Assembly: GCA_005772855.1 (NCBI GenBank)
Contig: SXIK01000138.1
Span: forward strand, 1 to 61,042
DNA: 61,042 bases
DNA from: Planctomycetia bacterium
GTDB lineage: Bacteria; Planctomycetota; UBA8108; SXIK01
Direction: 5' to 3'
Shown: piece after piece, positions 12,536-33,874 of the stretch
How positions within the stretch are numbered: position 1 is the stretch's first letter
How the letters are laid out: every line of letters starts with the position of its first letter
The notes under the pieces: generated by a model
Told to the model about the DNA's origin: nothing
Database searches by the model: none
The model's input: the letters and a program-made list of their open reading frames with translations, nothing else
Translations under genes and position numbers: made by a program

Positions 12536-15382
12536 ATGGCCATTCGCCCTGCGTTTCGGACTTTTCTCCTGCCAGGTCTCCTGTTCGGGGCGTCGGCATC
12601 ACCTGCGCTGGCGCAGCAGCAACCCGCCGCCGTCCTTGCCAAGTCGGCCAACAACTCCGCGACCGGCGCTTCCAACCGTTGGGACTTTAGCGCCACGGAC
12701 CTTTCGTTCAAGGCAGAGAAAAAAGAGGTTTGGGTCATCGACGCCTATTCCTCGACAGATCCGGCCATTGTCAAATTTTCGTCCGAGAACTTGCCTGCGA
12801 ATCCGACCAAGGTCCTCATCAACTTGCCCCAGGAACAGGCGACAGCCCCCGTGCTGGGAATCGCAGAGATTCCCCACGGCGTATTCAAGGGAAAGAATCT
12901 CGTCCTCGTCGATAGCGCATTTGGAACCAATGCAGCGCCTCGGCCCGAGATCGCAATCTACGGAGACGACGGCAGCCTGGAGGCCGGTGAGACTTTCGCG
13001 CCCCTCGATGGTCTCGGTCAGAACGTGGGCATTACCTCGATCGACGTGAACCCCGTGCGCGAGGAGATCGTGGCTTATGATTACGTCCACCACAGCCTGC
13101 TGATTCTCGACTTCGGATATGATCTGGTGGGTGGTCCTTTTCCCCTCGAAGGTTTTCCCAACAATTTCGTGGGACCCTGGTTCTACGGCACGGTCAATCG
13201 TACCGGGCTCAGGGGCGGCGGCGTGGGAGTGGCTTATAACGATCCTGACCACGTCGTCGTGACCTCGAGCTTCACGAACCAGAGCGACTGCCACTGGGCG
13301 CTCGAGTACGACCTGACACAGAACGGCGCTTACTCCTTGAGGGCCATTGACCTCAGCCAGGCGGGCTCCTCGGGCCTGAACCCCGACCTCGCCTTCGCCG
13401 GCTGCGCGATCGGGAAGGTAGGAAATGACTCGGCGCTCTTCGCACTCAATACCGGCGACGACAGTCTCTACGCGTTCAGCTTGGCGCTTGAACCCCATGC
13501 ACCCCCTGTCGCCCTCGTGAGTTGTAGCACTGATGCCGCAAGCGGCCGCTACACACTCTCCTGGACAGTGGCTGCGGCCCCCTCGACGTACGACGGCTTC
13601 GCCATCCTCGAAAATGGGGTGACGGTCGCGACGTTGGGACCCACGGAATCGACCTACACGTCCTCGCTCCCCACGTTCGGACGAGCCATCCTGGAGGTGG
13701 CGACTCAAAAAGATGGTCTGACTGGCGGCCCCCGCCTCGTGTGCGAGACGAATAACAGCTTTCGCCCAGCCCTCCCCGGCATTGTGACGGACACGACGCA
13801 GATCACGTCGCTTGGCGTACTCTCCGGCCTCGCGGTCGAGAAGATGCCCCCGACGGCGCAAGAGTTCCGCGGGTACGTGATCGGTCAGGGGCAAAACGAC
13901 ATCGAGGTCTTCGATCACACCTTGGCCGTCTTGCCGCTCGAGAAGCTGACACTGAACCCACGAGTCGTCACGCCTCAGGGTAGCTCCAATCTGTCGGCCA
14001 TCGGCATCGCCCTCGTGAATCTGAATGGAGAGAAAGTGATCGCAGTTCTCGACCCTGACGGGCCGACGGACTCGGGTGTGCCGAGCGCAGGATTCTACTC
14101 GCTCGCCCCGGGGAACCGAGGCGTCAGGATCAAGGAGATCGATCCGATCGATCTCGGCGCCCTGACTCCGGTGCCTTTGCTTTTCGACTGGGACTCGGAC
14201 AGTGACAACCACTTCGTCGCTGGAGGCTCTGTTCCGGGTACGCAGAATTTCGTTCTCGTCCGGATCCTTTTCGACGGAGAGACCCTCGTGGCCACGCAAC
14301 AGACCCCAATTCCTCAACGGCAGCTCACGCCATTTTTGAGTGCGCCCTTGACCGGAGTGGGTCTGTCCGTCCTGCCAAGCGGCAACCTCCTTGTCGCAGG
14401 CTCCGACACCTTCTCGAGAACGTACACCGAGGCGCTCCTCATGTCACCCTTCGTTGACGCTGCGCCGGGCCGCGCAGCAGCTCCCGGGAAATTTATCGGA
14501 TATGCGCAGGGGCTGCCGGGCCTGGGCAATTTCATGGCCCTGGGCTCCGGCCTTGGCCCGAGCACGATCTACGGTCTTGAGACAGCCTATTTTCCGCCCG
14601 AGCCTGCCGATGAAAAGGGGGTTGGTGTCACTTACCTCCCGACGGGCAGCATCACCCTCCTTTCGAACCCCTCGACCAATCAGGTACTCACTAGCCAGGC
14701 TCGCCGACTGATTCATGGCACCAATACGTGCGCGCAGCCCGACTTGCTGGCAGAGCAGCTACTAGATTCCATCGATGACCTGGCGACGGGCACCAGCTCC
14801 AAGGGGGCCCTGACCACTCCAGGCTTCGCCAAGAACCTGGGCGCGATCGACTATTTTCTTTATGTGATCAACCAGTCCCAGACCGCATCCACGGACTTGA
14901 CCCTCGAGGTCTTGCTCGACGGCGCTGTCGTGACCGAGGCCAGCCACAAGATTTCCCTGCCGCCCGGGCGGTATTTTCGCCGCTGGCTGCCGGCTCGCAG
15001 CGAGGACTCGCTTCAAGTCAACGTGACCAATAGCGGGAAGGATGCAGCGAGTGTTCGCGTGATCACGGGGGCCATGGGAAGCGGTTCCGCGCCTCAGCCC
15101 CGACCGACTTTCCGCCGCGGCGACTGCGACACCAACGGAGTCGTCAACCTGACGGACGCCATCTTCGGCCTCAACCACCTGTTCACGGGCGGAGTGGAGC
15201 CCACCTGCGCCGACGCCACCGACACCGACGATGACGGCAAAGTTTCGCTCACGGACATGATCCAGATCCTCAATTTTCTCTTCAAGGGTGGCGGCCCGCC
15301 GATGGCACCCGGGGCGGAAATCTGCGGCCTCGACCCAACCGACGACGGATTATCCCTGTGTGACTATCCTGCCTGCGAGTAG
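12536..15382 (+). CDS. Secreted protein with C-terminal dockerin-like calcium-binding repeats
   Basis: The protein has 948 residues with a classical signal peptide (hydrophobic core FLLPGLLFGASA, likely cleavage after ALA near residue 26). The central 800 residues are beta-rich and include propeller-like or fibronectin-like stretches (a CSTDAASGRYTLSWTV segment near 330). No enzyme motif is recognised. Residues about 858-920 contain two calcium-loop repeats, GDCDTNGVVNLTDAIFGLNH and DTDDDGKVSLTDMIQILNF, each followed by LF-x-GG. These are typical of dockerin-like tails on planctomycete exported proteins. Near 12475-12492 the leader holds a GAGAGGC/GCCTCTC hairpin. The tail may mediate surface attachment or protein pairing; no matching cohesin was recognised in this window. 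Confidence 0.8.
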   Translation: MAIRPAFRTFLLPGLLFGASASPALAQQQPAAVLAKSANNSATGASNRWDFSATDLSFKAEKKEVWVIDAYSSTDPAIVKFSSENLPANPTKVLINLPQEQATAPVLGIAEIPHGVFKGKNLVLVDSAFGTNAAPRPEIAIYGDDGSLEAGETFAPLDGLGQNVGITSIDVNPVREEIVAYDYVHHSLLILDFGYDLVGGPFPLEGFPNNFVGPWFYGTVNRTGLRGGGVGVAYNDPDHVVVTSSFTNQSDCHWALEYDLTQNGAYSLRAIDLSQAGSSGLNPDLAFAGCAIGKVGNDSALFALNTGDDSLYAFSLALEPHAPPVALVSCSTDAASGRYTLSWTVAAAPSTYDGFAILENGVTVATLGPTESTYTSSLPTFGRAILEVATQKDGLTGGPRLVCETNNSFRPALPGIVTDTTQITSLGVLSGLAVEKMPPTAQEFRGYVIGQGQNDIEVFDHTLAVLPLEKLTLNPRVVTPQGSSNLSAIGIALVNLNGEKVIAVLDPDGPTDSGVPSAGFYSLAPGNRGVRIKEIDPIDLGALTPVPLLFDWDSDSDNHFVAGGSVPGTQNFVLVRILFDGETLVATQQTPIPQRQLTPFLSAPLTGVGLSVLPSGNLLVAGSDTFSRTYTEALLMSPFVDAAPGRAAAPGKFIGYAQGLPGLGNFMALGSGLGPSTIYGLETAYFPPEPADEKGVGVTYLPTGSITLLSNPSTNQVLTSQARRLIHGTNTCAQPDLLAEQLLDSIDDLATGTSSKGALTTPGFAKNLGAIDYFLYVINQSQTASTDLTLEVLLDGAVVTEASHKISLPPGRYFRRWLPARSEDSLQVNVTNSGKDAASVRVITGAMGSGSAPQPRPTFRRGDCDTNGVVNLTDAIFGLNHLFTGGVEPTCADATDTDDDGKVSLTDMIQILNFLFKGGGPPMAPGAEICGLDPTDDGLSLCDYPACE

Positions 15383-18195: not shown

Positions 18196-21100
18196 ATGCA
18201 CCGTAAGGAACTCTTCTCCAAGGCTAGCTTCTTGCGTTCTGCCCCACCCTGGATAGCGTTGTGTTGGGGATTGGCACTGGCTCCTCTAGCCCTCCCACTT
18301 GAGGCCCAGGAGCGAGACGCGAAGCCAGAGGCGAAACCCAGGAAGCCCCCGGGCGAAGCTTCCGGGGACACGGACCCAATCCACGAGGAGATTCTGAAGA
18401 TCAACTACGTCTTCAATCGTGGACTTCACGAGCTCGCGCTGCCCAGGTACGAGCAAATCCTCGCGGCGAATGGCTCCTACGCCCGTACCGACCTCCTCCA
18501 CTACCCCATCGCACTGTGCCACTACAACCTGGCCACGGCGGCCCCCCCGGGCACGAAGAAAGCGGTTGACTCCCCCGGGGAGGCTTCCGCGCTGCGGCAG
18601 GGGCACCTCAAGAAGGCGGTCTTCCACTTCAAGGAAGCATTCCGGCGCAAGGAGCTCGAACCGCGGGCAACGGCAACGCGCCTCCTGGGTCAATCCCTGC
18701 TTCTTCTCGAGGACGCGGACGCCGCAGCAAAGGCTTTTCAGTTTGTTCTAGACAAGATGCCGAACTCGCCCGAATCGCCCCTGGCACGACTGGGCCTGGC
18801 AGAAGCTCGCTATTCCCAGGGCAAATTCGCGGAGGCAGCGGGGGCCTACCGTCAATTCCTCGAGGGTGGAGCGAGCGGCGATGACACGGACCGAGCACAG
18901 TTTTACCTCGCAATGTCACTCTACAAGGCCGGCGAGGCTGGCGACGAGGCCAGCAGGGCCGAAAGCATCGTCGCTTTCGAAAAGCTGTCGGCCAGCAGCT
19001 CGGCTCGCCATGCGCTCGATGCACGCTACATGCTCGCCATCGCACGTGAAGCGAAGGGTGAGCTCGAGGCTGCGGCGGAGGCCTTTCGTGGGATCGTGGA
19101 GGCCGGTTCAAAGGAATACGGTGAGCGGGCCCAGTTTGGCCTCGCTGCGTCGCTCTTTCGATCGGGGAAACACGGGGAAGCGCAGGCCGCGCTCGAACAG
19201 TTTCTCTCGAGCTTCCCCGCAAGCGAGCGCCGCGATCAGGCAACCCTGCTCTTGGCACGGGCACTTCTTGAGCAGAAGCAGACGACTGCGGCCGCAAAAA
19301 AGTTGCAGGAGCTCAGGAACTCTCCCGACGTGGGAGACGAGGCTTCGCTCCACCTGGCAAGGATCCTCACGCGCCACGGAAAGCCCCGGAGCGCAGCCAG
19401 CGTCCTTGCCCAGGCGCTCAAGGATTATCCAGAGAGTCGGCTGCGTGAGGATCTCGAGCTCGACCTGATCTCCGCTCAGGTCGCTGACGGCAACTTTCCA
19501 GCGGCGCTCGAGGAGATCCGGCGGGTAGAAGCCACCGGCAAGTCTGGTTCAACCGCGGATCAAGCAGCCTACCTGAAGGCCTACGCGCTCCATCGAGGCC
19601 AACGGCTGGAGGAGTCCAACACGGCCTGCGCCGAGTTCAGGAGGTCTTTTCCCCAAAGCCTTTACTTGAAGGATGTGCTCCAGATCGAGGCCGAAAACAA
19701 GCTGCTCACCGGTGACGCCGCCGGGGCAAGGGCGACGTACGAGGAGTTGCTCCGTGGCAACGCGAAGAGCCTCACCGCCACCCAGCGCCTCAAGGCCCGT
19801 TTCCGGATCGCCCAGGCCGTCTATCGTGAGAAGAGCTACGCGGAGGCGCTCAAGCTCTTCGACGCCATCGGCCAGGAAGTCCAGGGGCCCGAGGAGACCG
19901 TGGCGCTACGTGAGGACCCGCTTCTGCGTACCCTGCGTTATCTCATCGGCGAATGCGCCTACCAGGAAAAGATGCACGTGCGCGCGGTTAGCGAGCTCCG
20001 CACATTCCTCACCGAAGCTGCCGGAAAGGGAGGACTCGAGACCGAGACCTCCGATGCACGATTCAAGCTGGGACACTCGCTCCAGCTCTCCGGCGAGTTG
20101 AAGCAGGCTCGCGAAGCCTACCTCGATGCCTTGAAGGTCGACGACAAATCGCCCCACCGGGAACAGCTCCTCTTCGAGCTGGCGCAACTCGCCTACTCCG
20201 AGAAGGCTATCGACGAAGCGGCAAGATCATTTCAAACGGTTATCGAGGAGTTCCCGAAGTCGAGCTTCGTGCCTCACTCACTCAAGTTCCTCGGCTGGAT
20301 CGCCTTCGACGCCAAGGACGCGCAAAAGGCCGTGGGCTTTTACAAACGTCTGCTTCGAGAGCATCCGTCTCACCCTGCATCGAGCGACGCGGACTACTAT
20401 CTCTCCCTGAGTCTCAAGGCGCTCGGCCTGAGCCGGGAGGCCCGGGAAGCGCTCGAGAACTTCCGCTCGAAGCACCCCGAAGACCCGAGATCCGGCCGTT
20501 CGGAGCTCGAAGAGGCGGTTGAGCTCTCGAAGGAGAAGAAGCACGCCGAGGCGCTCGCGATCCTGGAGCGTCTCAGAGCGCAGCAACCTGCGCCCGAGAT
20601 GCTAACGATGGTTCTGTACGAAGTCGCATGGTGCCACCGTGGGCTGGGAGACCTCGCCAGCGCGCGCAAGGCTTATCAGGAGTGCCTCGAATCCGCCAAG
20701 GAGGATGGGTTTCGAGAGTCGACCACACTGGAACTGGGAGAGCTCGAGTTCGACGCCGGGGAGTACTCGAGGGCTCAGGAAATCCTCGAGCCGATCGCCA
20801 ACCGGAACGGTCCCAGGAGAGAGAAAGCGCTCTACCGACTGACGTGGACACGCCAGATGCTCCAGGATGCCGAGGGCGTGATCTCTCTCCACGAGTCCTT
20901 CGTGAAGGCCTTCCCGAAGAGCGAGCTTTCGAGCGAGCTGGGTGTCCTTGCCGCCAAGGCCCACGCCGCACGGGGCGACAGCTCGAAGGCTGCCCAGATT
21001 TTCCAGTCGATCGCAGACGGACGGCCCGACTCCCCCGAGGCCGAGTCGGCGCGTGTCAGCCTCGGCGAGTGCCTTGCGGAGGAGAAGAAATTCACCGAGG

Positions 21101-21522
21101 CCCAGGAGCGCTTCGACTCCTTTCTGGCCCGCTATCCAAAAAGTCCGCTGGGCTACCGTGCCCACTTCGGCTCTGCCTGGGCCCTCGAGAACCTCGGGGG
21201 CCGAGATGAGGCGATTGCAAAGTACCGGGCAGTCGTGAAGGAGACAAGAACGACGCTCGCAGCCAGGGCTCAGTTTCAGATTGGACAGTGCCTCGTGTCG
21301 AAGAAAGATTTCAAGGGCGCCATCGTCGAGTTCCTGCAGGTACCCGCAGCGTACAGCTTCCCGGAATGGAGCTCGAAGGCTCTTCTCCAGATCGCCGGCT
21401 GCTTCGAAGCGCTCGACGACGTCGACAATGCCCGCAAGTATTACTCGGAAGTCAAGGAGAGCTATTCGGCCCGCGATGAGGCCAGGCTCGCGCAGGAACG
21501 TCTCCAGAAGCTCGAACAGTAA
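18196..21522 (+). CDS. Very large periplasmic TPR protein, first gene of a Tol-like operon
   Basis: The protein has 1108 residues with a signal peptide (hydrophobic WIALCWGLALAPLALPLEA, probable cleavage near residue 37). The rest is a continuous array of roughly 25 tetratricopeptide-type repeats. Examples are AAAKAFQFVLDKMPNSPESP, EAAGAYRQFLEGGASGDDT, EAARSFQTVIEEFPKSSFVP and KYRAVVKETRTTLAARAQF. The F-P-x-S spacing matches the CpoB/YbgF and BamD subtype found in envelope complexes. Only three bases separate it from the ExbB/TolQ gene, so it is surely co-transcribed with the motor genes. By analogy with CpoB, a periplasmic regulator or adaptor of the motor is inferred. It is about four times larger than CpoB. 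Confidence 0.85.
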   Translation: MHRKELFSKASFLRSAPPWIALCWGLALAPLALPLEAQERDAKPEAKPRKPPGEASGDTDPIHEEILKINYVFNRGLHELALPRYEQILAANGSYARTDLLHYPIALCHYNLATAAPPGTKKAVDSPGEASALRQGHLKKAVFHFKEAFRRKELEPRATATRLLGQSLLLLEDADAAAKAFQFVLDKMPNSPESPLARLGLAEARYSQGKFAEAAGAYRQFLEGGASGDDTDRAQFYLAMSLYKAGEAGDEASRAESIVAFEKLSASSSARHALDARYMLAIAREAKGELEAAAEAFRGIVEAGSKEYGERAQFGLAASLFRSGKHGEAQAALEQFLSSFPASERRDQATLLLARALLEQKQTTAAAKKLQELRNSPDVGDEASLHLARILTRHGKPRSAASVLAQALKDYPESRLREDLELDLISAQVADGNFPAALEEIRRVEATGKSGSTADQAAYLKAYALHRGQRLEESNTACAEFRRSFPQSLYLKDVLQIEAENKLLTGDAAGARATYEELLRGNAKSLTATQRLKARFRIAQAVYREKSYAEALKLFDAIGQEVQGPEETVALREDPLLRTLRYLIGECAYQEKMHVRAVSELRTFLTEAAGKGGLETETSDARFKLGHSLQLSGELKQAREAYLDALKVDDKSPHREQLLFELAQLAYSEKAIDEAARSFQTVIEEFPKSSFVPHSLKFLGWIAFDAKDAQKAVGFYKRLLREHPSHPASSDADYYLSLSLKALGLSREAREALENFRSKHPEDPRSGRSELEEAVELSKEKKHAEALAILERLRAQQPAPEMLTMVLYEVAWCHRGLGDLASARKAYQECLESAKEDGFRESTTLELGELEFDAGEYSRAQEILEPIANRNGPRREKALYRLTWTRQMLQDAEGVISLHESFVKAFPKSELSSELGVLAAKAHAARGDSSKAAQIFQSIADGRPDSPEAESARVSLGECLAEEKKFTEAQERFDSFLARYPKSPLGYRAHFGSAWALENLGGRDEAIAKYRAVVKETRTTLAARAQFQIGQCLVSKKDFKGAIVEFLQVPAAYSFPEWSSKALLQIAGCFEALDDVDNARKYYSEVKESYSARDEARLAQERLQKLEQ

Positions 21523-21525
21523 CTC

Positions 21526-22332
21526 ATGAGACTCACCAAGCATCTCCATCCACTCGTGCGGATCGTACCGGCGGCCCTCCATCATCACAGGTGGATTCTT
21601 GCCCTGGCATTCGTGGCGCTCGCATCAACAGTCGTTCCCGCCGGCGAGCCGCAGACCGCGCCGCGAGAGAAGGAGACCGTCTTTTCGCTCATCGTCAAGG
21701 GTGGCTGGGTGATGATCCCCATTGGAATATGCTCGCTGATCGTCCTCACCTACGGCATCGAGCGGACCATCACCTTCCGGCAGTCCCGAGTTGGAAGCCC
21801 CACGCTTCTTGATCAAATCTTTGAGGACCTTCCGCAAGGGGCACAGTTGGGCCAGGGAACCGTCAAGCCCGCCCTTGAGCGATGCGATGCCGATGGCTCC
21901 ATCCTGGCTCGAGTGCTCCGATGCGGCATCGAGAAGCTCGACCGGGAGGAGGTCCACGTGCAGACGTTTCTCGAGGAGAGCGCAGCCAAGGAGTTCCACC
22001 TCCTGAAGCGGGGCCTCAGACCCTTCTCAATCTGCGCCTCACTTGCCCCCCTCCTGGGCCTTCTCGGCACGATCTTCGGCATGATCTCCTGTTTCGAAAA
22101 CGCAACCGCGGTCGATGCGGCCTCCCGCGCCGAAAGCCTCGCGAAGGGAATCTATGAGGCCCTCGTGACCACGGCTGCCGGCCTCTCGGTGGCCATCCCA
22201 GCAATGGCGCTCTTTTATTTCTTTAACGGACGGGTGGACAAAGCCGCCGACCTGATGGACGAGAGCGCGACTCGGTTCCTCGACCACTACTTCGGCGTTC
22301 AAGCCAGCGCCAAAGCTCCGAAGGGGAAGTGA
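21526..22332 (+). CDS. MotA/TolQ/ExbB-family proton channel
   Basis: The 268-residue protein is an inner-membrane stator-type channel subunit that uses the proton gradient together with the ExbD-like partner. It has an N-terminal hydrophobic segment (about residues 24-40) and a second helix in GGWVMIPIGICSLIVLTYGI near 53-75. The two conserved helices are PLLGLLGTIFGMISCF near 170 and ALVTTAAGLSVAIPAMALFYF near 210. The GLLGTIFGMI and TTAAGLSVAIPA strings are the signature of the TolQ/ExbB family. The extra N-terminal segment resembles ExbB-type proteins with a signal-like region. It sits between the TPR gene (3 bases) and the ExbD gene (3 bases). Confidence 0.92.
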   Translation: MRLTKHLHPLVRIVPAALHHHRWILALAFVALASTVVPAGEPQTAPREKETVFSLIVKGGWVMIPIGICSLIVLTYGIERTITFRQSRVGSPTLLDQIFEDLPQGAQLGQGTVKPALERCDADGSILARVLRCGIEKLDREEVHVQTFLEESAAKEFHLLKRGLRPFSICASLAPLLGLLGTIFGMISCFENATAVDAASRAESLAKGIYEALVTTAAGLSVAIPAMALFYFFNGRVDKAADLMDESATRFLDHYFGVQASAKAPKGK

Positions 22333-22335
22333 AAG

Positions 22336-22761
22336 TTGCACACCCGACGTGATGAATCCATCGAGGAGGTTGGTCCGAACATGACCCCCTTCATCGATAT
22401 GATGTTCATCCTTGTAATCTTCTTCTTGGCCACGAGTCGCTTCCAGCAGGAGGAACGCGACGAGAGCATTCGTCTCGCGAAATCCCGTTCGCAGATGCCG
22501 ATCGCAGCGGCCAGCGACATGCTCGTCATCAACGTGGACAAGGATGGCCGCAAGATCGTCGACGGCAAGGTGCGCACCCTCGATGAGCTCGAGGAGCTGG
22601 TACGCACCCGAAGAGCTGTCAGGAAAGACAGTGACGTGGTCATTCGAGCCGACGAAAGAGCTCGAGTTGGACAGTTGCAGGAGGCTCACGAGATTTGCGT
22701 TCGTCAGGGCTTCAAGGCAGCAAGTATCGCATACCAAAACGCAGGAGCCGTGGGGAACTGA
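22336..22761 (+). CDS. ExbD/TolR-family protein
   Basis: The 141-residue protein has a single membrane helix and a periplasmic domain. The cytoplasmic tail is followed by MTPFIDMMFILVIFFLATS, where Asp21 is the protonatable residue conserved in ExbD and TolR. The C-terminal part (about residues 55-140) has the family's pattern, with INVDKDGRKIVDGK, LDELEELVRTRR, VVIRADERARVGQLQEAHE and GFKAASIA. The start is TTG at 22336, three bases after the ExbB stop and preceded by AAGGGGAAG; starting at the ATG at 22381 would cut into the helix. The stop overlaps the next start as TGATG. Confidence 0.92.
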   Translation: MHTRRDESIEEVGPNMTPFIDMMFILVIFFLATSRFQQEERDESIRLAKSRSQMPIAAASDMLVINVDKDGRKIVDGKVRTLDELEELVRTRRAVRKDSDVVIRADERARVGQLQEAHEICVRQGFKAASIAYQNAGAVGN

Positions 22762-25700
22762 TGGCGCGCTCGTGGTTCAAGGCGATCCTGTGGACCGTGG
22801 GAGGTCTTCTGGGCCTCGCCGGGCTCGCGGCCTACTTTGTCCAGGAGAAAGGCCTCGTTCAACGCGTGTACCTGTACCAGGACGGACGCTCATCGCTCCG
22901 CCTGAGCGGATCCAGCACGCTCCGGGAGGTTTCCTGGTCAGCGCCCCGGGAAGTACCCGAAGGCAATGCGGCCCCAAATCCTCCTCCCGAGTCCCCTCAC
23001 TGGTCGTCTCCCGCGATCCTCCTGAACGCAGTACGTGGCCCCAACGGCGACTTTGACCTCCACGTCCGCGAGATGGCGTCCACCGGCTGGTCCGCCTCCC
23101 GTCCCATCCCGGGAGCCGTCAACTCACCAGGGGACGAGATCTCCCCGACACTTTCACCTGATGGTTCGATCCTATTTTTTGCCTCGAACCGTCCCGGTGG
23201 TCTCGGGGGATTCGACCTCTACCTCTCCCGGCGCACAAGGGATGGCTGGGGCAAGCCCCGGAACCTCGGCTCGCGCATCAATTCACCCTACGACGAGAAG
23301 GGGCCGGCGCTCCACCCCTCATCGTCCGTTCTCGTCTTCGCGACCAACCGGCCACGGAGTTTCATCCTGACACCGCCTTCGGAGTGGACCGACGTGCCGC
23401 TGGGAAGCTGGAAAGCGGGGAACGACTTGCTTGCCCGCGTCGAGCGGTCCATTACGCCCGACGGGGTCGGGGAATGGTCGGAGGTGCTACCGCTCGAGGC
23501 GCTCTCCTCCCCGGCAAGCAGCCGGGAGCCCTGTTTCTCGCCCTCGGGTGATTTTCTCTACTTCGCGTCCGATCGAAAAGGCGGCGCGGGTGGGCTGGAT
23601 ATCTACAGGGCGCAAGTTCAGTTCGCGGGAGATCAAGCGCCCAACATTTCACAGCTGAGGGTAGAGCCTCCCGAGAGCTGTGGCGCGCCGCTGAACTCAA
23701 GGTACGACGAACACGACCCACGGATCCTGCTGGATGGCCACGCCCTCGTCTTCCGCGTGGCCGAGACGCAAGGAGGCACGGAGAGCCTCTTCGAAAGCCG
23801 GACACGGGAGGTCTCATCGGAGCTGGAGTTCGCCACCGTGCCGCTTCGAGCGCTTGGTGCCAGGGCACTGCGTCTCACGGCGCTTGTCCTCGGCGGAATC
23901 AGCCTCCTCCTGGCCACGATCGTTCTCCTGCGCCATAGAGAACGCTGGTCCACGAGCCTCGTCCTGCGATCGAGCGTCCTGGCCATCTTGGCGCATGCCG
24001 CGATGCTCTACGGTTTTTACTTCTGGGTCGTCAGCGAGGACATCATCGCACTCGCAGAAAAGAAGACGTCCATGGAGGAAGTCACCGTCGAGCGCACGCT
24101 CCAGGCGAAGCTCCTGGAAGAAACGATGCGCATGGATGTCGCAGCACTGGCGAGGGAGGCTCCAGTCCAGCCCACGATCCGCGCGTCCGGGCGTGTCGTG
24201 GAAATTTCCAGCATTGATGTCACGGCGCCGGAGGCGGTGGATGCGCCCATCACCCCGGCACGCCCAGTGCCCGTCGAAAGCGCCGCGGAGTCACCCGAGG
24301 AACGAGCGGTGAAGGAGACCGCGCTCGAGTTGGAGGTCTCAAGGGCAATTCCGGAAGCGGTGCCTGTCACGGAGTCACTGCCACCTCCAGCGCCCAGCGA
24401 GCCAGAGAGAGACACCACCGATCTGACCGCGCGGGGGACCCAGAGTCTGAAGGCCGAACTCGAGACACCGAGGCCCGGGCCGCTCTTGCGAGTTCAAACG
24501 GCCGCCCCGACGCTCGAGCACCTTGGGGAGATCGACCTGGTCGCAGCCACAACGCAGTTGCAAGCCCCGGTGGAGACCCTGTCGTCTCTCCCACCGCTCG
24601 CCCGTCACACCCCGGAGACTCCAGCGGTCGTCACAGCGCTCTCGGTGCCCGCGCAGTCACAGGAGGTCACGCCCGAGCGCAGGTTGGCCGCCCCCGAGGT
24701 GTCGCCCAGAATGACGATCGGCAAGGCCTCACACGCCGTCAACGCTCCCGGCCTTCCCGAGGTGCGCGCAACGGAGGTGCACACAGCCGAATCGCTCTGG
24801 CGTGCGCAGATCTCAGGTATCCTGCCCGCTCCCTCCCATCACGCCGAGGCTCGCGAGCTGCCAGAAAATTCACTGGCCCTGGCCCCAATCACGCCGATTC
24901 CACAGACGCCAGGGGCCACCGTGAAGTTGGAGGAGACGGTGGCACTCGCCGAGGTCAGAAGCTCCTCAAGAGAGGATGCTTCCGATCCGCGACCACGTGG
25001 CAGCGACCATTTCGCGAGGCCAAGCGCTCCCGCCCGTGGAACGCTCAGCGCGGAGCTGGCCTCCGTGGTCTCACGACCCGAGTCGCGGCCGCTTTCGGTC
25101 GAGAGCTCGGCCGTCGCGGCTCCAGCTCTGGCCTCGAGCGCCCAGATGGACGCCGTGCCTTCCCCCGGAGTCCTCGAAAAGTCTCAACTACCCGGAATCG
25201 AGCGCTCGAGCTTGCGCTCACCGCTCGCCACTCTGAGCGAGGGCGAGGGCGGAGCGAAGCCCGCCCGGGGGGCGCCCGTCGTCACCGACATCCTGTTCGC
25301 GGGGCGGGCGGCGCAAAGAGAATGGCGGCCCGCTTTCCCCTCCACACCCGGCTCAAGCCTTGAGCTCCTCGAGGTTCAGCCCGGGCCTTCCGCATCACTC
25401 TCGCCCCTCGGCACAGTGGTGGGCAGGCCGAAGCTCTCGGGGAGCACGAAGACTGCCGGGAGTACACCGGCCCAAGCCAGCCTTCCCGCAGAAGCCACAG
25501 CCAAGGCCAGTGCCGTCACGCTGAAGCTCCCGGAGGCGCCGCCGGACCTCCGCAGAGAGAAAGATCTCGCGAAGGTGCGGTCTCCCGAGGCTCGCGAGGT
25601 GCTAGTAAGCCAGATGGGGGGCACGCAGGCTTCGGAAGACGCAGTTCGCATGGCGCTGGAATGGCTGGCACGGCACCAGTCGAGGGACGGCCGCTGGGAT

Positions 25701-26642
25701 GTCGACGGCTTTGATGCAGACTGCCGGAGCTGCCAAAGCCCCGGAGTACAGACGGACTGCGACGCTGCCGTCACGGCACTCGCGCTCCTGTGTTTCCTCG
25801 GCCAAAACCATACTCCGCAGAACCCTCTCAGCCCGTTCAAGAAGCACACCCAGGCAGCGATTTCTTGGCTGCTCCAGATCCAGGGTCTCAATGGCTCCCT
25901 CGCAGGCGCCGATGAGCGCTACACGATGTACACGCACGGCATTGCGACCCTGGCGCTGAGCGAAGCCCTGATCCTGACGAAGGACCCGAGGCTCGAGGAG
26001 CCCGTGCGCCTCGCGGTCCGCCTCATCATCACGACTCAGAACAGGACGACGGGTGGTTGGCGCTACAAGCCACAACCGCCCCTGCGGGGTGACACCTCCA
26101 TCACGGGCTGGCAGGTCCTTGCCCTTGTGAGCGCCCGCGGCGCCGGAGTCCAGGTACCCGAGGTTGTGTTGGATCGGGCCCGGCACTGGATCGACCACGA
26201 GGTCGCGGGAGGACAACACGGCGGCATCTTCGGTTACACCCGGCCGGAGAAGCCCCGCGTGGCGATGACTGCCGAAGGAATGTTCGCCCGCCTCCTCCTC
26301 GGCGGGAAACGGACGGACCGCAACATCGAGGAGGCGGCAAGGTACATCCACACCGAGACCCGGGACGGTGGATATCTCGACAACCTCTACCTTCTCTATT
26401 ACGGGAACCTGGCCCTCTACCATTACCAGGGCTGGATCTGGGAGCGGTGGAACAACGAAGTGCGCGAATTCCTTGTTCGCTCCCAGCAGCGGACGGGTAC
26501 TCGCGCCGGGAGCTGGGACCCCTCAGGGCAATATACCAAGACGGGTGGCCGCGTGCTTTCGACCTGCTTCGCGGCACTGACCCTGGAAGTCTATTACCGA
26601 TATCTACCACTTTACTGGACGCTCGACAAATCGGCGAAGTGA
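22761..26642 (+). CDS. Tol/TonB-like fusion: PD40 propeller, membrane anchor, long linker, squalene-cyclase-like toroid
   Basis: The protein has 1293 residues and starts at the ATG overlapping the ExbD stop (TGATG); an in-frame extension to 22695 lies inside exbD and is rejected. The order is: a membrane helix (about 10-30); a TolB/PD40-type propeller with at least four blades, seen as NSPGDEISPTLSPDG (121), NSPYDEKGPALHP (174), a blade near 254 and NSRYDEHDPRILLDG (312); two membrane helices (about 369-391 and 400-423), the second with His412 in LAILAHAAMLYGF, like TonB/TolA anchors; and a Pro/Ala/Glu/Ser-rich linker (424-955). Last comes an alpha/alpha toroid with prenyltransferase/squalene-cyclase repeats (LARHQSRDGRWD 964, ITTQNRTTGGWRY, GGQHGGIFGYT). 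No DxDD catalytic motif was seen, so a binding or scaffold role is likelier than cyclisation. Confidence 0.82.
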   Translation: MARSWFKAILWTVGGLLGLAGLAAYFVQEKGLVQRVYLYQDGRSSLRLSGSSTLREVSWSAPREVPEGNAAPNPPPESPHWSSPAILLNAVRGPNGDFDLHVREMASTGWSASRPIPGAVNSPGDEISPTLSPDGSILFFASNRPGGLGGFDLYLSRRTRDGWGKPRNLGSRINSPYDEKGPALHPSSSVLVFATNRPRSFILTPPSEWTDVPLGSWKAGNDLLARVERSITPDGVGEWSEVLPLEALSSPASSREPCFSPSGDFLYFASDRKGGAGGLDIYRAQVQFAGDQAPNISQLRVEPPESCGAPLNSRYDEHDPRILLDGHALVFRVAETQGGTESLFESRTREVSSELEFATVPLRALGARALRLTALVLGGISLLLATIVLLRHRERWSTSLVLRSSVLAILAHAAMLYGFYFWVVSEDIIALAEKKTSMEEVTVERTLQAKLLEETMRMDVAALAREAPVQPTIRASGRVVEISSIDVTAPEAVDAPITPARPVPVESAAESPEERAVKETALELEVSRAIPEAVPVTESLPPPAPSEPERDTTDLTARGTQSLKAELETPRPGPLLRVQTAAPTLEHLGEIDLVAATTQLQAPVETLSSLPPLARHTPETPAVVTALSVPAQSQEVTPERRLAAPEVSPRMTIGKASHAVNAPGLPEVRATEVHTAESLWRAQISGILPAPSHHAEARELPENSLALAPITPIPQTPGATVKLEETVALAEVRSSSREDASDPRPRGSDHFARPSAPARGTLSAELASVVSRPESRPLSVESSAVAAPALASSAQMDAVPSPGVLEKSQLPGIERSSLRSPLATLSEGEGGAKPARGAPVVTDILFAGRAAQREWRPAFPSTPGSSLELLEVQPGPSASLSPLGTVVGRPKLSGSTKTAGSTPAQASLPAEATAKASAVTLKLPEAPPDLRREKDLAKVRSPEAREVLVSQMGGTQASEDAVRMALEWLARHQSRDGRWDVDGFDADCRSCQSPGVQTDCDAAVTALALLCFLGQNHTPQNPLSPFKKHTQAAISWLLQIQGLNGSLAGADERYTMYTHGIATLALSEALILTKDPRLEEPVRLAVRLIITTQNRTTGGWRYKPQPPLRGDTSITGWQVLALVSARGAGVQVPEVVLDRARHWIDHEVAGGQHGGIFGYTRPEKPRVAMTAEGMFARLLLGGKRTDRNIEEAARYIHTETRDGGYLDNLYLLYYGNLALYHYQGWIWERWNNEVREFLVRSQQRTGTRAGSWDPSGQYTKTGGRVLSTCFAALTLEVYYRYLPLYWTLDKSAK

Positions 26643-29731: not shown

Positions 29732-30586
29732 TCAGCGCTTCCGTAGTCGCCTGAGGATGAACGATGCTGCGGTGATGCACGAGAGCGCTGCCACCGCCAT
29801 TTGCCCGGGCGGATGATCCCAGTGGTTCGCAAGGACAAAGGCCACGACAGTCGTAAGAATTGCCAGGACGGGCGCCGCCACGAAGACCCCGGACGCGGTC
29901 CTTGAGAGGCTCCTCGCCGAAAGGGCCGGCAGCACGAGACAACCGAACGTGTAGAGCATGCCCGAGACACGTAACGAGTAACCCACCGTCATGCCGAGCA
30001 ACCCGCAAGTGAAGAGTTCCCAGGCCCTCGCAGGGACGCCAGAAGCCTGCGCCATGTCGGGATCGGTGAGCACGAGCAGGATTCTTCGGCGGAAGCAGAG
30101 CAGGGAGCAGCCCACACAGAAGGTCGCAATGGCCAGGAACGTAACCTCCTCGCTGGAGGATCCAATAATGCTGGAGGAGAGGAGCCGGTGGATATCCTCG
30201 GTGCCATGGGGCGAGTGCGACACGAGTAAGATTGCGAAGCTGGCCGCGGCCAGGAAGACCCAACCCGTCACCGCCTCGGTTGATTCTCGCCCCCAGCGAC
30301 CCGAGTGCGACGTCAGGAGAGTCGCGGCCACCGACAAGGCACCCGCGAGGAACGACAGGAAGAGATCGGACTCCATCCACTCAACCCCGTGAAAAGGCCC
30401 GACGCTGGTGAGCCACATGCCGAGCGCCACGCCCAGGGTGGAAGCCTCCGCGACCGCGGCCCCGAGGAAGATCTGATCCTTTGCGACGACGAGAACGCCC
30501 GTCATGGAAAGGAGCACGGCAAGGAGCCAGCCTGCGAGCCAGCTATTGTGAAAGAGACCCCAGGACTGGATGAACTCTTGGATCAT
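29732..30586 (-). CDS. znuB: Zinc/manganese-type ABC transporter permease
   Basis: The 284-residue integral membrane protein is of the ABC-3 (ZnuB/MntB) family, with about eight hydrophobic helices. The first conserved block is WLAGWLLAVLLSMTGVLVVAKDQIFLG with AAVAEASTLGVALG following, as in ZnuB proteins. Later, LLGMTVGYSLRVSGMLYTFG and LVLPALSARSLS are typical of the family's helices 6 and 7. With the ATPase (44-base overlap) and the binding protein upstream it makes a complete importer. Zinc is the likeliest metal because of the company it keeps, but manganese or iron cannot be excluded from sequence. Confidence 0.88.
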   Translation of the reverse strand: MIQEFIQSWGLFHNSWLAGWLLAVLLSMTGVLVVAKDQIFLGAAVAEASTLGVALGMWLTSVGPFHGVEWMESDLFLSFLAGALSVAATLLTSHSGRWGRESTEAVTGWVFLAAASFAILLVSHSPHGTEDIHRLLSSSIIGSSSEEVTFLAIATFCVGCSLLCFRRRILLVLTDPDMAQASGVPARAWELFTCGLLGMTVGYSLRVSGMLYTFGCLVLPALSARSLSRTASGVFVAAPVLAILTTVVAFVLANHWDHPPGQMAVAALSCITAASFILRRLRKR

Positions 30587-31379
30587 GTAGCTCCCTTTCT
30601 TGAATCGACGTTGCGCTCAACCTTTTAAGGAGCTGCTCGTCGAGACCATAGGCCTCGCGCAAGAGCTCTGGAATCAGCACCCCATCACGCTTGCCGCAGG
30701 TAATTCTGCCTTGATGGAACAATGCCACGTGCGTCGCATGACGCAGGGCGAGCGCGAGCACGTGAGTCACGAAGACGACGGTAATGCCGAGGTCGCGATT
30801 CAAGGAGACGACCAGGCGTACCAGCGACTCCTCCGCGGCGATGTCCAGCCCGCTTGTCGGCTCGTCAAGGATCAAGAGGCTCGGCCTTCGCGCCAGGCCC
30901 CGCGCGATCAGCGCTCGCTGGCGCTGACCTCCGGACACGGACCAATAGTCGCGCTCCGCCAGGTCGGAGATTCCAGTCATCTCGAGCGCCCAGGCAATGT
31001 TCTCCCTACGTTCCGCTGCGGAGATGCCCGCCCTGGTGAGCCCGAGGTCAACAAATTCCCGGACTGTCTGGGGCAAGGTGGCCTTCGCGTCGCAGCGTTG
31101 CGGAACGAAACCGACCATCTGGCGTGAGGCAAGCTCGGGTGCCAGGGTAATCACTCCCGAGGTGATACGGTGAATCCCCAGTATCGCCCCGAGGAACGTG
31201 GTCTTGCCGGAGCCATTGGGACCAATGAAAAACCAAAGCTCTCCCGGCAAGATCTCGAGTTGAATGTCGCGCAGCACCACGGCCTTGCCATGACCCAGTA
31301 CGACATTCGACACCCGCAGGACAGAGTCCGGAGAGGACCGGACCGCGCCAACCACAAGAGGGGAGTCAGTACGTGTCAT
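30543..31379 (-). CDS. znuC: Zinc/manganese-type ABC transporter ATP-binding protein
   Basis: The protein has 278 residues from the ATG at 31379, which overlaps the stop of the binding-protein gene as ATGA; the reading up to 31469 would run into that gene. Walker A is GPNGSGKTTF near residue 46, the Q-loop lies in VGFVPQRCD near 93, the signature is SVSGGQRQRALIARGLA near 146, Walker B is LLILDEPTSGLD near 170, and the switch histidine is in VVFVTHVL near 200. Every catalytic element is intact. The 44-base overlap with the permease indicates tight coupling. It powers import by the ZnuB-like permease. Confidence 0.92.
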   Translation of the reverse strand: MTRTDSPLVVGAVRSSPDSVLRVSNVVLGHGKAVVLRDIQLEILPGELWFFIGPNGSGKTTFLGAILGIHRITSGVITLAPELASRQMVGFVPQRCDAKATLPQTVREFVDLGLTRAGISAAERRENIAWALEMTGISDLAERDYWSVSGGQRQRALIARGLARRPSLLILDEPTSGLDIAAEESLVRLVVSLNRDLGITVVFVTHVLALALRHATHVALFHQGRITCGKRDGVLIPELLREAYGLDEQLLKRLSATSIQERELHDPRVHPVLGSLSQ

Positions 31380-32446
31380 CCCCGGGTGCCTCCTAGTACG
31401 TTTTCGAGTTGCGTCACATTGAACTCCACCATGTCGAGGTATCGATCGGTGCCAGGTTGAGCCCCGCACTGATGAGCCAGGCTCACGATCCTCGCACCCG
31501 TCTCTTCACTCACAAGCCGGGCATGGCGGGAATCAAAGTAAGACACTGTCAATACGGCGCGAACACGGTTCGCCTTCAGGATCGCGATCACTTCTCTGAG
31601 ATGCCTCGTGCTCGGCGGAATACCCGGCCGGGGCTCGAGGAAGGCAATGATCTTGAGCCCGAATCGCCGCGCGAAATAGGGCCACAGGTCATGGTCACTC
31701 GCGACCTGGGCGCCGCGATAAGATGCGAGCCTCCCCAGCCAACCTCCCACGGCGCCGTCCTCTTGCTTCCTGAGGAACTCCTCGAGCTTGCCGTGCTCGT
31801 GGAGGATCGAGAGCTTCTCGACGTCGTACTTCGCCGCAAGCTTCTCTCCCACCAAGGCCGAGCCAAGCCGGCGCTCGAAGTCGGCGCAGCGGCTCTTGAA
31901 ATAGTCCGCCTTCTGGGGTCGGAGCTTCTGGAGGCTGTCGCTAAGCAGTCTTGCGACCTGGAGACCACAGATGGGATCACTGAGGTAGTGCGGGTTGCCG
32001 AATGCGTGCACATCTCCAAGGCTCCGGTCCACGACACCTCCAGGGATGTTGAGGGGGGCGATGGCCTTCGAGGCGTCGATGAAGCCGATCGCACCGGGCA
32101 GGACCTGCGGATTGCGAGCGTTTTGCCACAAGTTTGGCTCCCAGGCGACCTCCAGCTCAAGCCCCACATGCACGAGGGCGTCGGCGGTGCTGAGTTCCTT
32201 GATGAAACTCAGCTTGGCCTCGAGGAAGTGAGGGTCCTGCTGCGCCTTTGCGAAGACGAAAACCGTGACCTCATCGCCGCCAACCTCACTGGAGAGCTGG
32301 CCAAGCTCCGGCACGGTGGCACAGACTTTCAGCTTCCTGAATGCTTCCTGGGCCTCCAGCCGGGTCGCGCCGGCCAGCCCCAGGGTTAGCGCCACCACGG
32401 ACACGGCACCGACAAATTCTCTTTCACGGCTCATGGAGGTATTCAC
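31376..32446 (-). CDS. znuA: Zinc/manganese-type ABC transporter substrate-binding protein
   Basis: The 356-residue protein has an N-terminal signal peptide (VVALTLGLAGATRLEAQ). It belongs to cluster A-I (ZnuA/TroA) binding proteins. Two likely histidine ligands appear in QQDPHFLEAK near residue 71 and HAFGNPHYLSDP near 147; the segment EHGKLEEFL near 218 and the conserved VLTVSYFDSRHARLVSEETG near 300 also fit the fold. It has no long His-rich loop of the ZnuA kind. The poly-His segment may instead be supplied by the small protein encoded two genes upstream. The start is GTG at 32446; ATG at 32434 is an alternative. It lies 39 bases after the porin gene and overlaps znuC. Confidence 0.88.
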   Translation of the reverse strand: MNTSMSREREFVGAVSVVALTLGLAGATRLEAQEAFRKLKVCATVPELGQLSSEVGGDEVTVFVFAKAQQDPHFLEAKLSFIKELSTADALVHVGLELEVAWEPNLWQNARNPQVLPGAIGFIDASKAIAPLNIPGGVVDRSLGDVHAFGNPHYLSDPICGLQVARLLSDSLQKLRPQKADYFKSRCADFERRLGSALVGEKLAAKYDVEKLSILHEHGKLEEFLRKQEDGAVGGWLGRLASYRGAQVASDHDLWPYFARRFGLKIIAFLEPRPGIPPSTRHLREVIAILKANRVRAVLTVSYFDSRHARLVSEETGARIVSLAHQCGAQPGTDRYLDMVEFNVTQLENVLGGTRG

Positions 32447-32485: not shown

Positions 32486-33874
32486 TCAATACTGGTGCGC
32501 CGCGTGAGCGCCAAAGAGAAACTCGACGCCGAGCCACACCGAGTGCGCTTCATCGCCAGGGAGGTGCGCCGCGCGATCGTAGTTGTACTGCAACCTGAGC
32601 CGGGAAAATTCAGTCGGGTAATAGACGAGGATCGGCGAAACGCGGAGGCGATCGTCGCGGAACGGATCGTTCTGCCGATCGTCGGCCGATGGGCCTTCGC
32701 CCCCGGCGTGCTCGAAGCGCCCTCCCAGCGCCCAACCGGGCGTAAAACCATAAATCAACTGGGTGTAAAAGCCCCAGTCCCGAAAATTCTCCGAGGCAAA
32801 GACCGTGTCGTCCGCTGGATCAACCGGGTCATTTCCTTCGTCGAGCGCGTCGTCCGCAAGATAATCGCGGCCCATGATCTCTGTCTGCCAGATAACGAAG
32901 GGCCAGCCCCTTGAAGCTGACAACGGACGCCATTTGAGCAGAAGGTCGGCTCCGTAGATCCACGTCTCGCCATCGGGGCCGGTGAAGTTGGGGCCGTGCA
33001 GCCCGGATCCTGCAACCTTGGCGGAGACGGTGTCCGAGAGGTCGAAGCCGTTCTCCCACCGGAGCAAGTAGACGAGATCCTCGAACGAACGCACGGGCCG
33101 ATGAGTGAACGGCCGAGCCTCGGGGGATCGCTCCGCAGCGAATTCCTCGTTTGCCAGAAAACTCGTCATGGTCTCGCCGTTCGCGTTCTGCGTCCCGAGG
33201 TGAAACTGCGAAAACCACGGAGTGAATGGGACTAGCCAGCCGATACGGAAACCCGGGCCGCGCAGGCCATCGGGTCCAAACAGTCGGCTGTTGACGACGG
33301 GCTGGTCGAGCCACTCCCACTGGTGCGGGTGCTGGGGATTGATACGGCCGAATTCAGTAAAGAATTGGCCTGCCTCGATCTGAAATCCCGCCTCGGTCAG
33401 ACCCAGGGGAAGCGCTTGCGAGGTCAAGAACGCTTCCTCGAGTTCGACGACGCTCTCTCCCTCGATCGGGTCGATGAAGTAGACAACGTGCGCCTCGCCC
33501 GTCATGTAGGGGTCCACCGCGCCCGAGAGCGAGAGCTCAACGTTTTGCACGGTGAAGCCTCGCTTTCGGGGGTCGTGCCCACCCGCCTGGAGGCGCGAGA
33601 GCTCCTCATCGCGAGCCGTGGAGCTCCCCGCTGCGAAGAGCGCGCCGAGGGAGATGTCGATGAGCCTCAGGGTGGTGGGGCCAGCCTGCTTGACCAGGAG
33701 ACCGGGGCCAGAAGCCGACTGAGGCGGCAACGCGGGTGGCTGGGGAATCTCCTTCAAGGCTTCCTCGAGGGCATCTCTGGCCTCCGAGCTATCCTGCCCC
33801 CCGGCGTGCGATGGAAGAAAGCAAAAGGCAATCGCGAGCAGGCAGCGCCGCTCGAAATTGAAGTGCGGATTCAT
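32486..33874 (-). CDS. Outer-membrane beta-barrel (porin-like) protein in the zinc operon
   Basis: The protein has 462 residues with a signal peptide (about 1-26, ending near HAGG). After a short coiled or Pro-rich stretch (about 30-55), the rest has alternating hydrophobic strands with aromatic girdle residues and ends in VWLGVEFLFGAHAAHQY, as expected for a beta-barrel. Blocks such as EAFLTSQALPLGLTEAGFQI, FGRINPQHPHQWEW and FRDWGFYTQLIYGF resemble porin-like proteins that accompany metal ABC transporters in many diderms. The ATG at 33874 has AGGAAGG six bases upstream. It is placed between the His/Cys-rich protein and the binding protein, which suggests passage of metal across the outer membrane. 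This is inferred from context. Confidence 0.72.
   Translation of the reverse strand: MNPHFNFERRCLLAIAFCFLPSHAGGQDSSEARDALEEALKEIPQPPALPPQSASGPGLLVKQAGPTTLRLIDISLGALFAAGSSTARDEELSRLQAGGHDPRKRGFTVQNVELSLSGAVDPYMTGEAHVVYFIDPIEGESVVELEEAFLTSQALPLGLTEAGFQIEAGQFFTEFGRINPQHPHQWEWLDQPVVNSRLFGPDGLRGPGFRIGWLVPFTPWFSQFHLGTQNANGETMTSFLANEEFAAERSPEARPFTHRPVRSFEDLVYLLRWENGFDLSDTVSAKVAGSGLHGPNFTGPDGETWIYGADLLLKWRPLSASRGWPFVIWQTEIMGRDYLADDALDEGNDPVDPADDTVFASENFRDWGFYTQLIYGFTPGWALGGRFEHAGGEGPSADDRQNDPFRDDRLRVSPILVYYPTEFSRLRLQYNYDRAAHLPGDEAHSVWLGVEFLFGAHAAHQY

Follow-up and report, generated by a model that had tools for sequence, protein, structure and literature searches.

A predicted Ton/Tol-type envelope motor of Planctomycetota with a fused TolB-like propeller and a C-terminal alpha/alpha toroid

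The planctomycete envelope is unusual. Among the envelope machines described to date, the closest class to the one considered here is formed by the TPR-TolQ-TolR-vWA transducers of PVC bacteria, which carry an SHLS helix, and further systems of this sort are said to await discovery (PMC12204202; Mol Biol Evol 2025). The window, a stretch of 61,042 nucleotides of DNA from a Planctomycetia bacterium, contains a system of that kind, consisting of a four-gene operon whose final gene encodes a fusion in which TM1, a TolB-like PD40 propeller, TM2, TM3, a proline-rich linker and a squalene-cyclase-type alpha/alpha toroid follow one another in that order. The genes, and the parts of the fusion, are as follows:

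18196..21522, + strand: large TPR protein, operon gene 1; 1108 aa with a predicted N-terminal signal peptide (ORF, Pfam)
21526..22332, + strand: ExbB/TolQ-type proton channel, gene 2; 268 aa (Pfam MotA_ExbB, E=1.7e-27)
22336..22761, + strand: ExbD/TolR-type protein, gene 3; 141 aa, TTG start (Pfam ExbD, E=1e-23)
22761..26642, + strand: propeller-transducer-toroid fusion, gene 4; 1293 aa (ORF, Pfam, models)
22764..22847, + strand: TM1, N-terminal membrane anchor, residues 2-29 (modelled helix, hydropathy)
22866..23807, + strand: PD40 beta-propeller, predicted periplasmic, TolB-like, residues 36-349 (Pfam PD40, 1.1e-22)
23856..23933, + strand: TM2, residues 366-391 (modelled helix, hydropathy)
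23958..24026, + strand: TM3, residues 400-422, TonB/TolA-like motor-binding helix with His412 (family alignment)
24030..25560, + strand: linker, 521 residues by the hydropathy boundary; 11.9% Pro, no Cys, few aromatics, probably disordered
25554..26639, + strand: C-terminal QW-type alpha/alpha toroid, residues 932-1293 (weak Pfam SQHop_cyclase_C match, profile, model, Foldseek)

The ORF listing and Pfam agree in placing all four genes between 18196 and 26642, where a preliminary description made from the sequence had located them, and its claim of tight junctions of 3, 3 and 1 bases is borne out by direct reading of the letters: TAA-CTC-ATG, TGA-AAG-TTG and TGATG, corresponding to gaps of 3 and 3 bases followed by a 1-base overlap. 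With the PVC transducers this operon shares a TPR gene, TolQ-like and TolR-like genes, a transducer with an SHLS-type helix and a disordered linker, and in both systems the C-terminal domain is unrelated to that of TolA or TonB. In contrast to those transducers, the head is an alpha/alpha toroid rather than a vWA domain (Pfam found no vWA domain in the fusions), there is one ExbD where they have a pair, the linker spans about 470 residues as opposed to about 100, and a TolB-like propeller and two TM helices have been added before the motor-binding helix. No earlier description of this operon type was found: the open-access papers searched describe no toroid transducer, and PMC12204202 was the only near precedent among them.

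Residues of the putative motor were numbered by E. coli ExbB and ExbD, following alignment of the family with E. coli ExbB, TolQ, ExbD, TolR, TolA and TonB. The equivalent of ExbD Asp25 (TolR Asp23), the transmembrane proton-binding aspartate, is present in 53/53 family sequences, as are each of the ExbB pore threonines, Thr148 and Thr181, and the equivalent of ExbB Ser34, with the equivalent of Pro190 found in 52/53. Cryo-EM of the E. coli systems has demonstrated that the Ser-His pair of TonB/TolA touches Ser34/Ser28 of ExbB/TolQ, a Trp and a TM3 Pro (PMC12215075); at the Trp38 position of this contact network the family has mostly Leu or Val, not Trp. The helix at residues 400-423, to which the preliminary description had drawn attention, indeed bears a TonB/TolA-type histidine according to the family alignment: the TM3 His is found in all 52 sequences, preceded at H-4 by Ser in 40 and Ala in 12, the fusion of the window being one in which Ala (Ala408) replaces the motif Ser four residues before His412. 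His412 is one of 13 invariant columns across 35 sequences, and histidine is rare in the other helices (1/53 in TM1, 2/53 in TM2). The family has not conserved the distal Leu-Ser of the SHLS motif, and Ton systems also show lower conservation at these residues (PMC12215075). As the motor residues are essentially invariant and the TM3 His is universal among the sequences aligned, a proton-driven force transducer is very probable. Searches with Zorya models gave a weak match of ExbB to ZorA (17.5 bits) and none to ZorB, and nothing relevant in the phage and defence libraries matched the operon.

The operon is likely to encode a PMF-driven force transducer that acts across the envelope and belongs to the Ton/Tol superfamily, with a fusion that docks via TM3 and carries a toroid head. 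Counting against this reading are the loss of Trp38 and of the distal Leu-Ser, the Ala in place of Ser at H-4 in the window copy, and the G422 locus described below. In the proposed mechanism, ExbB and ExbD would form the inner-membrane motor, driven, as residue conservation suggests, by proton passage via the ExbB Thr/ExbD Asp site. The TM3 His, which has Ser or Ala at H-4, is the equivalent of TonB His20 and TolA His22, and by way of this helix the fusion would dock against the flank of ExbB. TM1 and TM2 are predicted to hold the TolB-like propeller at the inner membrane, on its periplasmic side. From TM3, the proline-rich linker (281-828 residues) may span the periplasm and present the toroid, which would grip a putative outer-membrane or wall partner for the motor to pull. 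The periplasmic TPR protein is probably a scaffold or partner, by analogy with CpoB for Tol.

Because searches with the whole fusion were swamped by the widespread toroid domain, later searches used its N-terminal half as the query against a sample of 392 Planctomycetota genomes. Matches at 1e-20 occur in 70 of these, comprising about 50 full-length fusions and, for the remainder, apparently other PD40 proteins. Loci with full-length fusions were fetched and annotated, giving 57 fusion frames in 52 genomes and 21 families, and ExbB followed by ExbD lies upstream on the same strand in 54 of the 57 (51 genomes, 21 families), with a large TPR gene before exbBD in 52 of those 54. That this order recurs so consistently though only the fusion N-terminus served as query argues for more than chance. 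Both the gene order first proposed from the window and the joining of propeller and anchor in one protein, as a propeller-anchor-toroid fusion linked to TPR-ExbB-ExbD, therefore recur across Planctomycetota. The exceptions are two frames on one short contig (G006:C381) and a fusion in G422. Homologues unlinked to exbBD were looked for as a possible refutation, and G422 is the one clear case: here the TPR gene directly precedes the fusion (L174, G422:C53) and exbBD is missing at the locus, the TM3 His is kept, and one MotA_ExbB gene lies elsewhere in the genome. The genome to which the window belongs has a second copy of the operon on contig C152 (L046), with a fusion of about 2000 aa that continues into contig C29 (L047), the two contig ends sharing 141 identical overlapping bases inside the fusion gene; both copies are also present in G001. 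A further locus (L055, G002:C180) has two rearranged fusion genes in tandem downstream of ExbB-ExbD. In the 797-aa product of one of them, propeller-like stretches flank the toroid on both sides; the other encodes at least 1256 aa.

One alternative is that the operon is the planctomycete orthologue of Tol-Pal, in which TolA has been fused to TolB and CpoB has expanded, and serves outer-membrane constriction at division. Its gene content does parallel TolQ-TolR-TolA-TolB-CpoB, and the systems have in common the motor residues, a Ser/Ala-x3-His helix, a TolB-like propeller and CpoB-like TPR repeats. Specifically, the TPR protein (Pfam TPR_16 1.2e-57, TPR_6 4e-54) scores 245.8 bits against the YbgF/CpoB-type NCBIfam model tol_pal_ybgF, exceeding its cut-off, and the identification of the propeller as a counterpart of TolB holds by profile and by fold. 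An AlphaFold model of fusion residues 1-457, built with 35 homologues in the alignment (mean pLDDT 78.8), places helices at 2-29, 366-391 and 400-422 and the propeller at 36-349; TolB was the sole match when a profile of the propeller region was run against PDB sequences (best 4.6e-6) and accounted for all top 20 Foldseek matches (best 9.5e-12), with TM-scores mostly of 0.3-0.4, the low values reflecting the membrane helices in the query and local uncertainty of the model. Among NCBIfam models, the best scores of the PD40 propeller, 82-87 bits, came from PorE and CHU_0125-type TPR-PD40-OmpA proteins of Bacteroidota; these are far under the cut-offs of 600-620, and the fusion, unlike those proteins, has no OmpA domain. 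The niche may, moreover, be open, as TolB_N was found in only 10 of the 392 Planctomycetota genomes, always weakly.

Against this reading, the propeller is fused to an inner-membrane transducer, and TolB_N, a TolA/TonB C-terminal fold and a linked Pal are all lacking, on which grounds the system, judged by its sequence, is not Tol-Pal. The initial statement that no Pal gene is present stands for the operon, where Pfam found no OmpA-domain protein, but four OmpA-domain proteins are encoded elsewhere in the genome. A search of the same genome for a classical tolB-tolA-pal set found no TolB_N domain, and the TonB present belongs to a separate Ton system. Occurrence in about 13% of sampled genomes (about 50/392), in some as two copies, is also patchy for a core division system. 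Taken together, these data make Tol-Pal orthology doubtful, and domain content, residue conservation and synteny support the earlier proposal of a motor-driven envelope system that probably differs from both Tol-Pal and TonB.

A second alternative holds that the operon is a Ton-like importer or exporter, in which the toroid, or the domain that replaces it, pulls an outer-membrane transporter or a surface-polymer secretion channel. The operon does share with ExbB-ExbD-TonB the motor and the logic of a motor-binding helix, its Ser-His helix being like that of TonB; exchanged C-terminal domains would suit differing partners, and glycans or isoprenoids are often bound by alpha/alpha-barrel relatives of the toroid. 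Such a role is unlikely, in that the operon has neither a TonB-dependent receptor nor a porin and the one TonB in this genome is a normal one that adjoins a TonB-dependent receptor (named from sequence), and so belongs to a Ton system of its own. The fusion differs from TonB in having no TonB_C domain: no TolA/TonB C-terminal domain was found in it, and the toroid sits at the C-terminus. Of the four MotA/ExbB proteins of the genome, two belong to the operon and its second copy, one to a flagellar-type MotA-MotB set on contig C93 and one to a set on contig C25. The last of these is a motor operon (L049, G000:C25, 1076-9928) that encodes a TPR protein, ExbB, two ExbD-like proteins and then a TPR-secretin protein.

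A third explanation takes the toroid to be a membrane-held enzyme, squalene-hopene-cyclase-like or polysaccharide lyase-like, with the motor serving regulation. Its relatives by sequence and fold are indeed enzymes: the C-terminal 362 residues, modelled at pLDDT 87 and pTM 0.91, match squalene-hopene cyclases in a profile search (2.7e-9), and Foldseek returned squalene-hopene cyclases along with other alpha/alpha barrels, such as AprG, GH76 and the complement thioester domain (TM about 0.5-0.6). The squalene cyclase assignment was nonetheless down-weighted because the window toroid contains no DXDD cyclase motif, and among the toroids examined just 8 have a strict DXDD. Furthermore, the fusions of three genomes of family f8 (L105-L107) have no toroid and carry instead a CarboxypepD_reg domain and a beta domain, the rest of the machine being kept, while that of L103 (G367) has both the toroid and the CarboxypepD_reg/beta module. 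As another module takes the place of the toroid in the L105-L107 clade, its most likely role is that of a binding head, not an enzyme; it could have a catalytic role, and the enzyme explanation as a whole is quite improbable. The linker that joins the head to TM3 varies in length across the family, with a median of 472 aa (range 281-828) and a median proline content of 11.6%. Finally, that the fusion lies beside a standard exbBD pair by chance, a notion to which the existence of lone toroid proteins in the same genome lends some color, is exceedingly improbable and is rejected because the ExbB-ExbD-fusion order is conserved over 21 families (54/57 frames), the TM3 His being invariant as well.

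In addition to the force transducer proposed for the operon, these genomes encode many toroid proteins unlinked to exbBD (L018-L042, L057-L059). A hydrophobic helix precedes the toroid in 29 of them: in 25 it lies 76-125 residues upstream and contains S-x3-H in every instance (25/25), and in the remaining four the TM is distant or the segment lies 22-25 residues ahead of the toroid. Among other TM segments of the fetched loci, S-x3-H occurs in 7 of 1054. Two proteins (L019/L057, L041/L059) are represented twice among the 25 rows, which also contain close relatives; fewer than 25 are therefore independent, yet the contrast with background remains very large. This pattern lends further support to the force-transducer reading of the operon. 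The orphan copy on contig C82 of the window's own genome has no clear TM helix. From their sequences, the orphan S-x3-H/toroid proteins are probably TonB-like transducers with a toroid head. Around the orphan toroid gene (L190-L197, L048, L059) the gene neighborhood is conserved, comprising YjeF_N, a small one-TM protein, sigma-54 activators and a 1350-1560-aa protein with no Pfam match; these neighbors provided no functional clue. We tentatively suggest, as a possibility, that Planctomycetota have a further branch of PMF machines in which QW-toroids are force-transmitting heads, one form being the propeller operon and the other a wider group of orphan S-x3-H/linker/toroid proteins that borrow motors from elsewhere, and that the job of this branch in the envelope has no equivalent in E. 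coli.

A conserved motor with its own class of transducer is a concrete candidate for the supply of energy to the planctomycete outer membrane; the classical TolB signature is nearly absent from the sampled genomes. His412 of the fusion, the ExbD Asp and the ExbB Thr are the candidate key residues. The system adds to a recent view in which motor-driven transducers come in several types, TonB and TolA being just two of them, and shows that the head domain is exchangeable.

Elsewhere in the window, a secreted 948-aa protein is encoded at 12536-15382, with a weak Pfam match to dockerin type I at its C-terminus. Positions 29732-32446 on the - strand encode a predicted metal-type ABC transporter (permease, ATPase and binding protein, read from sequence), and beside it, at 32486-33874, is an ORF resembling an outer-membrane porin.
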